Positions 26,527 through 31,486 of a stretch of DNA of 64,000 nt are shown here, in pieces. The translations under genes were made by a program, and so were the position numbers. The notes under the pieces were generated by a model. That model had not been told where the DNA came from and ran no database searches. It saw only the letters and a list, made by a program, of their open reading frames with translations. The stretch's first letter is position 1. Every line of letters begins with the position of its first letter. Location: the NCBI RefSeq assembly GCF_014058685.1, contig NZ_CP059055.1:868001-932000 (forward strand), given 5' to 3'. Origin of the DNA: Lactobacillus johnsonii. Its GTDB lineage: Bacteria; Bacillota; Bacilli; Lactobacillales; Lactobacillaceae.

Positions 26527-26550
26527 GAAAAAGGAATAAGATTTTGATTT

Positions 26551-26880
26551 TGATATGAACCCAAAAATTAGGACATATTATTAAACTGTTTGATTTAAAA
26601 CCATATTTCGATATTGAATCGAAGTATGGTTTTTTATTGAGCTCTTAATTCTAAAATTATTGTAGTAATAAATATAGTCTTTGATTGCTTCTTCTAGTTC
26701 ATCTAGATTTTTAAAAGTTTTTTCAAAGCCATACCACATTTCTCGCTTTAAGATTCCAAAGAAGCCCTCCATTAATCCATCATCTAATGAGTTGCCTTTT
26801 CTAGACATTGATTGTTCAATACCATGATTTTTAAGCCAGTTTTGAAAAGCAGGATGAGCTTTTTGTTTATAGATGTGTCA
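26551..26880 (-). mobile_element. Left fragment of an IS3-family element (3' end of transposase OrfB)
   Basis: The terminal repeat TGATATGAACCC starts at 26551. On the minus strand, codons from about 26877 to 26581 encode HPAFQNWLKNHGIEQSMSRK and onward through GLMEGFFGILKREM, the last-Glu part of the DDE transposase, ending at the normal stop. All upstream transposase sequence is absent. Its end matches that of the right fragment at 31486, and the two fragments have the same orientation. Confidence 0.85.
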
Positions 26881-27088
26881 TCTTTGTAAGCCTTAAATCT
26901 AAGAATATTTTTATTGAACAGATTACTGTACAGAAAAAAGATAAATCAATTAGGACAAAATATAAATTATAATGTGTAGTTATAAGAGAATGCTATGTAC
27001 TTTTATAGTATGACAAAGGTAATATGAAAGGCTATATTACTTTTTAAAAGTTAATTCAGAAAAAGATAAGATAGTAAGAGTGATAATT

Positions 27089-27904
27089 ATGAAGATAGCG
27101 AATGGATTAAAACAAATTAGAAAAATGTTAGGGCTTAGTCAGGAAAAAATGGCAGGTAATATTCTAACTAAATCATATTATTCAAAAATTGAGCGAGGAG
27201 AGTTTGAAATAAAAGCTTGTGATTTAGTAAAAATTTTGGAATTGCATGATATAAAGCCGTCTAAATTTTTCTCCATGTTAGAAAAGAATAATAAGAAATC
27301 AAAATATGATTATTATATAGATGCTTTAAGAGAAAGTTATTATGAAAATGACTTGATTAGGATTCAGAAAGTAGTAGATAGTTTAAAGAATGAACATCAC
27401 GATAGACGAATTAATATTTTATTAGCACTTGCAGTCTTATTAGAAGCAAATCTAGAAGGTAACAGAGATAGAATACCTATTTCAGAAATAAATACAATTA
27501 AGAACTTAATTTTTGAAACTGACAATTGGGATAAATATAGTTTGTGTTTATTTTCAATGTCTATGAATTTATTTAATATTGAGGAATTAAATGTGATAAT
27601 GCGGCAAATCTTAGATAAATGTCATCATTATGCAAGTAATGATTTAAAAAAATTTATGTCAGCTATTCTGGTAAATTATTTAGATTATTCTTTTCGCTTT
27701 AGTAATCAAAATACAGAAACAGTTTGGCAATCGATAACACAGTTAAAACAAACAGAGCCAAAACCTAAAAATTGTTTTACGTTAATTATGGGAAAATATT
27801 ATGAAAGCTTGTTGAATAAGGATTATAAAAGAACACATGAAATTATAAACTTTTTGCAGCAAATAGGCATGAATGATTTTGTTAAAAAGATGTATAAAAA
27901 ATGA
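27089..27904 (+). CDS. Rgg/GadR/MutR-family transcriptional regulator
   Basis: A 271-residue cytosolic regulator. Residues about 2-57 are an XRE-type helix-turn-helix (GLKQIRKMLGLSQEKMAG, SYYSKIERGEF), and the rest is an all-helical repeat region typical of the Rgg peptide-binding C-domain. Rgg proteins usually sense short peptides re-imported by Opp and act on promoters next to their own gene. ATG 27089 is chosen; a GTG at 27080 is also in frame. It faces the downstream peptide ORFs and exporter. The gene is visibly richer in A/T than the flanking housekeeping genes, suggesting acquisition. No oligopeptide importer is in this window. Confidence 0.85.
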   Translation: MKIANGLKQIRKMLGLSQEKMAGNILTKSYYSKIERGEFEIKACDLVKILELHDIKPSKFFSMLEKNNKKSKYDYYIDALRESYYENDLIRIQKVVDSLKNEHHDRRINILLALAVLLEANLEGNRDRIPISEINTIKNLIFETDNWDKYSLCLFSMSMNLFNIEELNVIMRQILDKCHHYASNDLKKFMSAILVNYLDYSFRFSNQNTETVWQSITQLKQTEPKPKNCFTLIMGKYYESLLNKDYKRTHEIINFLQQIGMNDFVKKMYKK

Positions 27905-27925
27905 GTGTCATATGTGACACTTTTT
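27904..27925 (+). terminator. Hairpin at the regulator's stop codon, terminator or operator
   Basis: AGTGTCA, TATG loop, TGACACT and then five Ts. The stem begins inside the TGA stop. It reads as a terminator of the regulator gene, but the short perfect inverted repeat upstream of the peptide ORFs could also be a binding site. Confidence 0.65.
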
Positions 27926-27987
27926 AAATGCTGAAAATCCTAAACTAGTAATATAAGAATACAAAATTTAATAGATAGAGGTGAAAA

Positions 27988-28014
27988 GTGATGGGACCAT
28001 GTTTTCCTTTATAA
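27988..28014 (+). CDS. Very short ORF, 7-8 codons (VMGPCFPL): candidate leaderless peptide
   Basis: A strong AGAGGTGA ribosome site (27977-27984) is followed by GTG at 27988 and ATG at 27991, then a stop at 28014, giving MGPCFPL or one residue more. An in-frame stop just upstream rules out an N-terminal extension. A tiny hydrophobic ORF next to an Rgg regulator is the arrangement of SHP-type and leaderless signalling peptides (for example RopB with its 8-residue SIP). The Cys is notable. The residues VMGPC resemble VLGPS near the end of the next ORF. Expression is unproven; the ribosome site is the main support. Confidence 0.45.
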   Translation: MMGPCFPL

Positions 28015-28094
28015 ATCTAAAGAAGTCTAACCGATATGGAAAATTCCAAAGATACATAAAGTAATTGTTATGCTTGTATTAAGATAGGACTTGA

Positions 28095-28235
28095 ATGAAA
28101 AAAGATGATATTATGAAAGATTTAAATACATTTAGTGATTCATTAGGAAAATTACAAGAGGCAGAAAATCCAAGAGAAGAATTAGCGTGGTCGACATTTT
28201 CCGAGTTATATGTATTGGGACCTTCTGCAATGTAG
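28095..28235 (+). CDS. Small peptide, 46 aa, possible precursor peptide
   Basis: ATG 28095 to stop 28235, with a modest TAGGAC ribosome site. The product begins with a charged leader-like half (MKKDDIMKDLNTFSDSLGKL), a Glu/Asn/Pro-rich middle, and ends STFSELYVLGPSAM, a less charged tail. It has no signal peptide and no Cys. Its position directly ahead of an ABC exporter and an HExxH peptidase suggests a ribosomally made peptide that is cut and exported; this is inference. A second Met at residue 7 could be the start. Confidence 0.5.
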   Translation: MKKDDIMKDLNTFSDSLGKLQEAENPREELAWSTFSELYVLGPSAM

Positions 28236-28272
28236 TGAAAATATAATTTTTAAAGAAATGAGGTAATGCCTA

Positions 28273-29892
28273 ATGAAAGAAAAAGAAGTACAAATTAACT
28301 TGAAATGGGTGTTATCTGTTTTACCTGTTAACTTAATTGTTATTATCATTATCTTAGCAGTAACGAGTTCGTTTGAGGGAGTAATTAATGGTTACGTTTT
28401 AGGACAGATGACTAATATTTCTTTCCATAATTTTGCAAATGTTGGAACTTTTTTGCTTCTAGTATTTACTGCCTATTTAATTACTTATGTATCAGCCTAT
28501 CTATTTTTGTTAACTACTCAAAAGGCAATTCAATATTTAAATGAAAAGTTAAAGTATACTTTTTTTACTTCAGATTTTTATAAACAAAAGGATTTAAACG
28601 TAAGCTCATCAGACGTAATCAATAAGGTTACTAGTATTTCCAATCAAATTCAAAAGCAATATTTTCAGCCGCTATTTAATTTGATTCAGTGCTTAATGAC
28701 TATTATTTCAACTACAATTGTTGTTTTAAAAACTAATTTATTATTAGGGTTAATCTATATTATTCTTTCATTATTAAGTATGGTTCCTAATCAAATTGGT
28801 AAAAAAAGAATGAATCAAAAAATGGATTCATGGAGTGAGTGCAATTCATCGTTGATTACAGTCATGAAAGATATCTTCCAAGGGAAAAATGAAATTAGAA
28901 AATTTGACGTCAAAAATCTTTTCTTTAGAAAATTTATTAGCACGTTAAGCGAAGAGGAAGAGAGATATTTTCAATTAAATCGTGTTCAATTTTCCGTTCA
29001 ATTCTGTGCTTGGATGTGTTCTATTAGCGCTGACGTTATTCCAATGGGAGTTGGTCTGTTAATGGTGGCATATCATTTGGATGGCGTAGAAATAGGTACA
29101 ATTGTGACCTTGTCTTTGACCGCAGACCATGTTCTTGGTGGAATTCGTGAATTTTCAAGTTATCAAACACAAATTACAAGTACTAAAAACATTCGTAATA
29201 TTAAAATTATTCAAGATGATACTGATAAAGCGGTGAAAACTACCTCACAAAATCAACTCTCAGTGAATGGTATATCATTTGCTAGAGATAAAAAGTTGAT
29301 TTTTAAGCATGTTAATTTACAAATGAAAGATAGAGATAAGGTAATAATAACCGGAGATTCTGGAGTAGGAAAATCTACTTTGCTCAATATAATTTCTGGT
29401 CAATTAACTCCAATTTCTGGTCAAGTTAAATTTGGTCAAGGTTCGATTGCTTTGTCTGATTCAGTTCTAATTTCGCAAAAACCATGGTTGTTTAAAGGAA
29501 CTATTGCAGAGAACTTGTCTTTATATCAATCTTTCTCAGAAAAAAGATTGATAAAAGTGCTTAAAGAAGTTCACTTATGGAAAGAATTAGGCGCACAACC
29601 TTTGAATTTTGAAGTTGAAAGCAATGGGACTAATTTGTCAGGAGGACAAGCTCAAAGATTAGTGATTGCACGAGGCTTATTAAGAAAAAAGAATCTATTT
29701 TTACTTGATGAAATCACTTCAAGTCTAGATAAAGAAAATTCAACGAAGATTAGAACATTAATCTATCAATTACCAGTCATGATGATAGAAGTTGCACACA
29801 ATATAGATTTTAATTTGGTTAAGAAGTATAAGATTAAAATTTATACTTTAACAAAGGATGGGATCATTAATGAGCGACACCTGGAAAATTAG
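28273..29892 (+). CDS. ABC exporter, fused membrane and ATPase domains, no peptidase domain
   Basis: A 539-residue half-transporter. The N-terminal ~310 residues contain six membrane segments; the ATPase domain has Walker A GDSGVGKST near 361-369, signature LSGGQAQR near 455 and Walker B LFLLDEITSSLD near 475-486. The switch His is present (EVAHNID). It lacks the C39 peptidase domain of bacteriocin exporters, so any cleavage must come from another protein, possibly the HExxH protein translated next. Ribosome site GAGGTAA. It overlaps the metallopeptidase gene by 23 bp. Confidence 0.9.
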   Translation: MKEKEVQINLKWVLSVLPVNLIVIIIILAVTSSFEGVINGYVLGQMTNISFHNFANVGTFLLLVFTAYLITYVSAYLFLLTTQKAIQYLNEKLKYTFFTSDFYKQKDLNVSSSDVINKVTSISNQIQKQYFQPLFNLIQCLMTIISTTIVVLKTNLLLGLIYIILSLLSMVPNQIGKKRMNQKMDSWSECNSSLITVMKDIFQGKNEIRKFDVKNLFFRKFISTLSEEEERYFQLNRVQFSVQFCAWMCSISADVIPMGVGLLMVAYHLDGVEIGTIVTLSLTADHVLGGIREFSSYQTQITSTKNIRNIKIIQDDTDKAVKTTSQNQLSVNGISFARDKKLIFKHVNLQMKDRDKVIITGDSGVGKSTLLNIISGQLTPISGQVKFGQGSIALSDSVLISQKPWLFKGTIAENLSLYQSFSEKRLIKVLKEVHLWKELGAQPLNFEVESNGTNLSGGQAQRLVIARGLLRKKNLFLLDEITSSLDKENSTKIRTLIYQLPVMMIEVAHNIDFNLVKKYKIKIYTLTKDGIINERHLEN

Positions 29893-30582
29893 ATTAGGGG
29901 AAAATATTCTAGTTACGCAAAAAGAAGGTATAGAAAGTAATTTTGTAAGGTTAATTCATAACGAGTATGTTCCTCTGAGTGCTAAAATAGAAACTCATAA
30001 TTTGAAGAAAATAGGGTTCATGGCTAATGAATATTTGAAAACAGCTTTTGGCAAAAAATATAATTTTAAGATAAATTTTATGACAACTTTTAGTTCTAAA
30101 GTAATAATGCCTATTTATGTAGTAAAAACCAAAACTATTATCGTACCAAATAGATTAGTTTTGCTACAAAATAGTAATAATTTAATTGATCAAGAAGTTT
30201 TTTCTTTTTTGTGTATCATGAAATTGGACACGCTTTCTTAGATCAAAATAGAACATCTATATATAAATCTATGAAAATAAAGTCTATTTTTACATATTTA
30301 TGTGATAAATATAGTTTAGTAAAATTGAACATTAAAGATAAAACTTTAAGTTTAAATCTACAGCAAGTCTATAAAGAGTTTTTACCAGATTTTATAGCAA
30401 TGTTATTATTACAAAAACAATTTACAAACCTCTTTTATAGAGATTGGAATGCTTTCTTTGCTAGCTTTAATTACTTTAAAACTGATAAGGAAATTGTATC
30501 AATTTTTAATAAGGATCCACACGCAATAATTGAAGCTAGAATTTCTATCAGTAAACAAGCTGTTAAATATTTTAATATCTGA
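29870..30582 (+). CDS. HExxH metallopeptidase-like protein, split across two frames (frameshift or programmed -1 slip)
   Basis: Frame 1 starts at ATG 29870 behind AAAGGATGGG and ends at 30241. Frame 2, from about 30190 to 30582, encodes the zinc motif YHEIGHAFLDQ (HEIGH). Reading frame 1 to the T TTT TTG heptamer at 30205-30211 and then shifting -1 gives one protein of about 237 residues, with the HExxH near 117-121 and a possible third ligand in EFLPDF. The heptamer is in the correct phase for canonical -1 slippage. It is either a one-base deletion in a T run (a broken gene) or a programmed frameshift. No signal peptide or membrane segment, so it would act in the cytosol, plausibly on the peptide(s) encoded upstream. 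I do not recognise its peptidase family. Confidence 0.6.
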
Positions 30583-30604
30583 AAATTAAGATAACTACAC
30601 TTGG

Positions 30605-30635
30605 GGATCTAGGTGAAATTGGCCAGATCCTTTTT
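30605..30635 (+). terminator. Rho-independent terminator closing the peptide/exporter cassette
   Basis: GGATCT(A)GG pairs with CCAGATCC around TGAAATTGG, then five Ts; 23 bp after the metallopeptidase stop. Confidence 0.75.
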
Positions 30636-30759
30636 CTTTTTATTGAAAAAATCCTCTCCACCATTGATTAGCGTCTTACAACGCTTTTTCACATAATCGT
30701 GCTACGCTTGAGATAAGTATTGGTCTATTTTAGACAAAAGTGAAAGAGAGGTTAGTAAG

Positions 30760-30965
30760 ATGAAAGTTGAAGTTATTGGTGCATCTGGAATGGCAGAGTG
30801 GCTGACAAAGGAAAATCCGCAAACTGATATTACAGGCATCGTTAGACGTGAAAGTAAGGCTAAGGAAATCCTGGGTAATGATGCTAATCTAATTGTCGAT
30901 GATATTTTTGCCATCCATGATAGTATGATTAATAAATTTGATGTCATCATTGATGCTTTTGGTTT
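30760..30965 (+). pseudogene. Truncated NAD(P)-binding protein (NmrA/YwnB-like), 3' part lost
   Basis: About 68 N-terminal codons remain: the nucleotide-binding MKVEVIGASGMA, an IVRRESKAKEILG segment and FDVIIDAFG, all typical of NAD(P)H-binding Rossmann proteins of roughly 200 residues. After DAFG the frame runs into reversed IS sequence (LFGKQRRS) and stops at 31041. The helix after the glycine motif also looks short. It has a good ribosome site (AAAGAGAGGT), so a stub may still be translated, but it cannot be functional. Confidence 0.8.
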
Positions 30966-31486
30966 TCTCTTTGGGAAACAAAGGCGCTCAATTTTTTACA
31001 AATTCGTTTTCGACAGTAAGCTTGAGATTCTGCCGTTTTAAGTCTTTTACTTGTTTTTGAAGCTCTTGGATTTGTTGGTCTTTGCTTTTCATGAGATGGT
31101 CTGCCTTTCTTGTGATTAATGACATTCTCCTCATCTTCTTTATATTTGCGAAGCCAATTAAAGATCATGCCTGAGCTACGTAGCCCTAAATCTAATGAAA
31201 CCTGAGTGGCTGGTTCATCGTTAATCAATATTCTTTTAATGGCAGTTTTCTTAAATTCTACTGAATAAGAAGAATATGATTTATTCAAGATTTTTAAGCC
31301 GTGAAGGTCTATTAGACGGATTAAATAATATAAATTGTCAGGTCTTACTCTATATTCTCTACCTAGTTGAGATAGTGATTTATGATAACGCTCCCAATTA
31401 TTGTAGATGTAAATTTTGTCTTGCTTAGATAATTTAGACATAATAAAAACCTCGAAATTCTTGTCCGAATTTCGGGGTTCATATCA
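30966..31486 (-). mobile_element. Right fragment of an IS3-family element (orfA remnant and terminal repeat)
   Basis: On the minus strand from 31441 the OrfA N-terminus is intact (MSKLSKQDKIYIYNNWERYH, then LGLRSSGMIFNWLRKYKEDEE). Further on the normal coiled coil KSKDQQIQELQKQVKDLK lies in a different frame, so at least one frameshift has occurred. All of orfB is missing. The terminal repeat ends at 31486 as the complement of TGATATGAACCCC and agrees with the left fragment at 26551 for most of 25 positions. The left boundary of about 30966 is approximate. Confidence 0.8.

Follow-up and report, generated by a model that had tools for sequence, protein, structure and literature searches.

Class III lanthipeptide precursors carry a core motif of the form Ser-xx-Ser-x(n)-Cys, and the streptosactin cluster is controlled by an Rgg regulator. 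Leaderless peptides paired with RopB-clan Rggs occur across families, including the Lactobacillaceae, according to the portions of PMC10518010 drawn on here, which also name ribosomally synthesized and post-translationally modified peptide (RiPP) clusters and ATP-binding cassette (ABC) transporters as likely targets and describe a leaderless peptide that induces an ABC transporter in L. reuteri. Because that work describes it, the combination of an Rgg, a leaderless peptide and a RiPP cluster or exporter is of a known kind. Here we analyze a 64,000-nucleotide stretch of a Lactobacillus johnsonii genome (the window; positions 868001-932000 of a single contig of 1,951,416 bases) containing a block with an Rgg gene, a 7-codon open reading frame (ORF), a 46-residue peptide ORF, an ABC exporter gene and a gene for an HExxH-motif protein. 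We consider it probable that this block is a decayed, quorum-sensing-controlled class III lanthipeptide cluster, the remnant of an immune non-producer.

Profile and exporter searches covered 75 genomes of the genus, the window's own (G000) included; G numbers denote genomes and L numbers the loci compared. In G035 (L035), a 39-residue precursor is followed in turn by an 832-residue LanKC, an exporter, an HExxH gene and an Rgg that is only very distantly related to that of the window. This LanKC matches NF038151 with E 6.8e-79 but at 266 of 575 bits, and RamC_N and LANC_like above cut-off. The window resembles this class III cluster in precursor type, exporter (51% identical), gene order and the leader sequence LGKLQ, which we take to be a class III leader motif; it differs in that a synthetase is neither present at the locus nor found elsewhere in the genome, and in the replacement of the core Cys. 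The block had originally been predicted to be an undescribed peptide system, a view that gives way to this relative with the same exporter and HExxH gene.

The alignment of the 46-residue peptide, an ORF already recognized in the original prediction, with the G035 precursor spans 30 residues and scores 54, a value reached by 2 of 20,000 shuffles. When the G035 precursor was compared with 3,040 small ORFs of the collected loci, the window's ORF ranked first, the next best scoring 35. These comparisons make the ORF a homologue of a class III lanthipeptide precursor that is paired with a LanKC. ELAWSTFSELY aligns with QLSWSTLSQNC of G035, such that WSTFSELY replaces WSTLSQNC; Ser-xx-Ser is present, and the peptide has no Cys anywhere to complete the core motif. 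A core-like STSLSRTC was also seen by eye upstream of the L028 exporter. No LanKC was found in the window, and the NF038151 search of G000 returned one match, which covers only the profile's kinase part. Over the genus, 73 of the 75 genomes give some NF038151 match; the single matches of G000 and G010, both confined to the kinase part, lie in frames of 665 and 684 residues. Kinase-part matches are taken to be PknB, and since these two genomes have no others, both seem unable to make lanthionine by the LanKC route.

The exporter lacks a C39 peptidase, as predicted (no Pfam match over 539 residues), which rules out a C39-type bacteriocin exporter; ABC_tran lies above cut-off and ABC_membrane reaches 24.2 of 28 bits. 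Its best NCBIfam match is the streptosactin exporter GggC (NF050039, E 2.5e-54), but at 185.4 bits versus a cut-off of 750, and the block holds no radical SAM gene. Relatives at E<=1e-100 occur in 19 of the 75 genomes, the window's own among them (some of the 19 are incomplete), and wider loci were taken for the other 18. Exporter matches were also found on Lactobacillus plasmids, and a scan of genome contigs matched one distant ABC protein.

Several of these loci retain traces of a synthetase. In G015 (L036), a 76-bp stretch (84%, E 1.2e-11) matches the end of the G035 LanKC, and ~55 bp of this stretch lie upstream of the exporter start. G021 (L122) carries lanK (502 residues), lanC (370 residues), precursor and exporter in that order, and G071 (L176) still has, ahead of its exporter, matches to the G021 lanK start (41 bp, 92.7%) and precursor end (39 bp, 94.9%), separated by a few bases; in G070 (L178) the lanK start is likewise close to the precursor end, as judged by eye. 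In the exporter tree, G035 neighbors G015, G073 (L121) groups with G003 and G005, and G021 groups with G070 and G071; rows with LanKC adjoin rows without, the placement of long rows being unsure. Because the tree alone cannot tell LanKC losses from gains, direction is taken from the remnants in G015 and G071/G070, and on that reading LanKC is repeatedly lost in related loci.

The exporters of such loci are under purifying selection. The ratio of nonsynonymous to synonymous substitution rates (dN/dS) is 0.03 for L044/L045 (G005/G003; dS 0.96), where the NF038151 search found no LanKC in either genome and both rgg genes are broken. Further pairs whose loci lack LanKC give 0.14 (L037/L040), 0.22 (L032/L034), 0.14 (L033/L038) and, at a dS of only 0.02, 0.20 (L176/L178). 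Because the exporter stays under selection without its product, it would most simply be an immunity pump. Two further observations concern this exporter superfamily. In seven genomes (L032, L033, L037-L040, L043), relatives without a nearby LanKC or Rgg match adjoin the same 460-residue gene, MurT-like by eye, the L043 exporter being frameshifted. Additionally, G000 holds a further exporter of the superfamily (L087 10800-12377), interrupted by stops.

The regulator belongs to the Rgg receptor family (Rgg_C E 3.4e-8; TIGR01716 38.6 bits versus a cut-off of 36.9), and against solved structures it matches 'transcriptional regulator' chains at E 5.8e-7 to 7.2e-7, including 4yv6, presumably Rgg2. 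As first described, it is followed by a hairpin and a tiny ORF, MGPCFPL, which becomes 8 codons long when read from the preceding GTG. The nearest Rgg (G016) is followed at the corresponding position by a Shine-Dalgarno-led MGPWFPL whose DNA, relative to the window's ORF, carries three silent substitutions and one that exchanges W and C; when the window and G016 post-rgg gaps were compared by blastn at E 1e-3, the hairpin alone aligned. Behind related Rggs lie MYPWFPL, MDPWYPL, MYPLFPF, MFIPWYPL, MFIPCYPL and a longer ORF beginning MIPWYPC. Two in-frame patterns, run on 1.38 Mb of partly redundant collected loci, gave six distinct matches, all behind an rgg, versus none for four frame-shifted controls. 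A regular expression, written after the peptides had been seen, gave 12 matches versus a residue-shuffle mean of 3.0 and maximum of 8: two of them are alternative starts of a single ORF, seven distinct ones sit 82-125 bp downstream of an Rgg match, three belong to loci that have no Rgg match, and another is separated by >2 kb from its Rgg, on the opposite strand. Among 20 post-Rgg regions, eight hold such a peptide and one (L178) has an altered form, MFIPWYLL; the remaining 11 lack it, L168 and L182 among them, where the rgg gene is broken. Of the many Rgg places found, 20 were taken up as loci, picked mainly by score. On an Rgg tree built without L168, L182 and L184 (rgg broken or partial), the label for the tiny ORF clusters no more than chance would give (147 of 500 shuffles scored as low).

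Given the kin peptides behind related Rggs and the six in-frame matches against no control matches, there is support for the 7-codon ORF being a gene. Its product is probably a leaderless pheromone, and the two genes look like a quorum-sensing pair. The W-to-C change recurs in G071. Both small ORFs of the original prediction thus have counterparts elsewhere, one behind related Rggs and the other in G035. An Rgg-type gene adjoining an ultrasmall ORF led by a ribosome site is what the window shares with the RopB-clan leaderless communication peptide systems, as far as the portions of PMC10518010 used here describe them; those systems are predominantly divergent, whereas the window's pair is co-directional. 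Most of those peptides comprise 8-10 aliphatic or aromatic residues, in contrast to the 7-residue, proline-rich peptide of the window (xP[WC][FY]PL). Among the matches listed for the strings PWFPL, PWYPL and PWFP, no title concerned bacterial signaling. At the level of titles and abstract openings, no paper connected a LanKC or a class III lanthipeptide of Lactobacillus to an Rgg; PMC12016500 and PMC11002830 hold such terms together.

The HExxH gene overlaps the exporter end and encodes the motif HEIGH, as expected; all elements listed originally are present, and the one correction is that this gene is not intact: because the frame changes within the overlap 30211-30241, no single ORF spans it. 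Its profile matches 3 of the 75 genomes (G000, G010 and G035), each time directly behind the exporter, although the exporter usually stands without it (16 of 19 genomes), so that the proposed co-occurrence holds in one direction only. Co-occurrence with an Rgg was likewise partial: 8 of the 19 exporter loci have one (the window, L028, L029, L035, L036, L042, L044 and L045; rgg is broken in L044 and L045, and that of L036 was assigned by reading), while the others do not, save L041, where an Rgg lies ~4.7 kb away on the other strand. In wider samples, the HExxH profile matched G000 and G035 among 397 genomes of the family (G010 evidently not drawn) and G000 alone among 395 of the order; a search of plasmids gave no match. 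The protein (~243 residues) is probably cytosolic, in agreement with the prediction, the best 19-residue hydropathy windows being 1.09 and 1.32 in two intact relatives. The L029 protein approached DUF4344 with 22.7 bits and the L035 protein with 13.3 bits (E 0.07), both below the gathering score of 29.6. ImmA/IrrE and other named HExxH families gave no curated match, and two thioredoxins found as structural matches (E 0.009-0.011 over 59 positions) were judged to be chance; AlphaFold on the C-terminal fragment alone gave a mean predicted local distance difference test score of 48.0, too low for the model to be used. The class III leader proteases listed in the consulted part of PMC10885120 are FlaP (S9), AmyP (S8), AplP (M1) and PttP1/2 (M16). 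The likeness is that AplP and PttP1/2 are zinc metalloproteases; none of those listed is of the small HExxH type, and the window's protein reaches no curated cut-off.

Taken together, the data show homology, a shared gene order, the lack of a LanKC match in the genome beyond the kinase part, and related loci that lost LanKC while their exporters stayed under selection; for signaling, processing and immunity we infer the following scheme. In its original state, the Rgg would bind its own leaderless 7-8-residue peptide, taken up from outside, and switch the operon on; LanKC would dehydrate and cyclize the precursor, the C39-less exporter would export the peptide, and the HExxH peptidase would trim it. 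In the present strain LanKC is missing, the core Cys is altered and the peptidase gene carries a frameshift, and therefore no lanthipeptide should be made. The Rgg, pheromone ORF, precursor ORF and exporter remain intact, the exporter most likely being retained as self-immunity against lanthipeptides of producing relatives. The earlier idea of a peptide that is made, cut by the peptidase and exported thus lacks support here, with the synthetase of its relatives missing and the peptidase gene frameshifted.

A number of observations weigh against decay of such a cluster. The gap in the window gives no match to the L035 region and hence no LanKC remnant, and the 46-residue ORF is unbroken and preceded by a plausible ribosome site. 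Given the great distance between the Rggs of G035 and the window, the Rgg/pheromone module may not share the history of the peptide module. G010 has an Rgg, an exporter and an intact HExxH gene with no LanKC and no precursor seen, which a pure leader-peptidase role leaves unexplained, and the window's HExxH frameshift could be an assembly error. On the exporter tree, the LanKC label requires five changes, a number that none of 500 label shuffles exceeded. The L037 contig extends just 226 bp upstream of its exporter, and that genome (G038) has a LanKC piece elsewhere. Finally, the window's exporter gives a dN/dS of 0.10 and 0.09 against L028 and L029 (68-69% identical), from which selection in the window's own lineage cannot be inferred because dS is saturated (2.1-2.6).

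Some of the same data would fit a working derived system in which, after LanKC loss, the peptide became an unmodified, exported linear signal or bacteriocin and hence lost its Cys; this is in essence the originally proposed model, set on a lanthipeptide scaffold. The intact precursor ORF, Rgg, pheromone ORF and exporter agree with this, as does a Cys loss that would reflect freedom from thioether chemistry. We nevertheless regard it as unlikely: the HExxH gene is frameshifted, no intact precursor was seen before the exporter in the LanKC-less L028, L029, L044, L045, L176 or L178, and no second Cys-less member was found, a profile of the window and G035 peptides clearly matching only G000 and G035 (2 of 75 genomes; next best E 0.02). 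That the whole block is drifting in a broken insertion sequence (IS) with nothing functional is quite improbable, since this would accommodate the frameshifted HExxH gene, missing synthetase, W-to-C difference, truncated flanking gene and absence from the sole other genome of the species searched (G059), but not a full-length Rgg (271 residues) and exporter (539 residues) free of stops, nor purifying selection on exporters of other LanKC-less loci.

Returning to the decayed cluster, its Rgg/tiny-ORF cassette is, by homology, one that precedes chemically unrelated bacteriocin clusters. Downstream of the G016 cassette is a lactococcin-972 family peptide (TIGR01653, 44.2 versus 32.1 bits), and in G073 an ATP-grasp maturase relative (TIGR04187 E 1.4e-30, 106.5 of 350 bits); a split LanKC follows in G021 and G073, and large exporters elsewhere. 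It is tentatively possible that the Rgg/xP[WC][FY]PL cassette acts as a quorum-sensing switch of a plug-in kind, recombining ahead of chemically unrelated antimicrobial-peptide modules, with loci like the window's being selected 'listeners' that shed synthesis, kept sensing (with a code shifted from W to C) and kept the exporter as inducible immunity to producing neighbors.

Other gene arrangements were observed among the loci compared. In L122 (6464-9077, G021) and L121 (G073), the class III synthetase is split into a 502-residue lyase and kinase protein and a separate LanC (370 residues, L122), with the precursor encoded after the split genes. L042 (5100-6850, G073:C31) has an Rgg, a 10-codon ORF with a strong Shine-Dalgarno sequence (MWWELPVILG), an 89-residue precursor-like ORF and a 436-residue RamC_N/kinase protein without a LanC match. 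In L183 and L185 (G005, G013), an Rgg is followed by the 18-codon ORF MVIVPEPYGLIPEIKLYK; genes there are LanB- and LanC-like by eye, and L183 also has a Cys-rich, precursor-like ORF of 59 residues. In L182 (G000:480500-489500), two broken Rgg genes flank a 597-residue exporter, and both are intact in G024 (L171).

The block lies, as predicted, inside a split IS (Table 1). Its ends are 20-bp repeats (26556-26575 and 31462-31481) identical at 17 of 20 bases. The left one is accompanied by the tail of an IS3-type orfB, the right one by the head of a transposase-like orfA; by eye, the block between them falls within the terminator hairpin of a flanking gene. The terminator proposed to close the block was likewise recognized in the sequence by eye, though not by the terminator scan. 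In G059, the region ~26547-31474 is absent. Because the junction retains GGGTTCA, seven bases present at the right IS end, it is read as a deletion scar more than a virgin site.

Table 1. Features of the block, in window positions.
Feature	Position	Strand	Evidence
Left IS3-family remnant: terminal repeat and last ~75 residues of orfB	26556..26886 (inner edge approximate)	-	rve_2 E 1.6e-24, NF033516 E 1.6e-19
Rgg-type regulator, 271 residues	27089..27904	+	Rgg_C, TIGR01716; G016 Rgg 66% identical
Hairpin after rgg, probably the rgg terminator	27904..27921	.	Terminator scan; L166, L028 and L121 have similar palindromes at this position
7-codon ORF MGPCFPL, candidate leaderless pheromone	27991..28014	+	AGAGGTG upstream; counterparts behind related Rggs
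46-residue class III lanthipeptide-type precursor without core Cys	28095..28235	+	Alignment to G035 precursor
Half-size ABC exporter, 539 residues, without C39 domain	28273..29892	+	ABC_tran, homologues
HExxH gene, N-terminal part, first frame, overlapping exporter end	29870..30241	+	31.7% identical to L029 protein
HExxH gene, C-terminal part with HEIGH, other frame	30211..30582	+	52.9% identical to L029 protein, 35.3% to L035 protein
Hairpin and T-run at block end	30605..30641	.	Read by eye; not in terminator scan output
Gene fragment cut by right IS remnant, NAD(P)-binding-type by eye	30760..30985	+	No Pfam match above cut-off
Right IS remnant: orfA-like head and terminal repeat	30985..31481 (inner edge approximate)	-	phrog_151 transposase E 7.3e-10

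The new parts of this finding are the pheromone family and the retention of the exporter, and in place of an 'unknown peptide system' stands one that can be tested. In one bacterial genus, a family of short, proline-rich pheromones seems to govern clusters for class III lanthipeptides, ATP-grasp RiPPs and lactococcin-972-type peptides, and the small, unassigned HExxH protein is a candidate for the protease that removes class III leaders. Loci that have lost the synthetase while the exporter stays under selection offer natural experiments on immunity outliving production.

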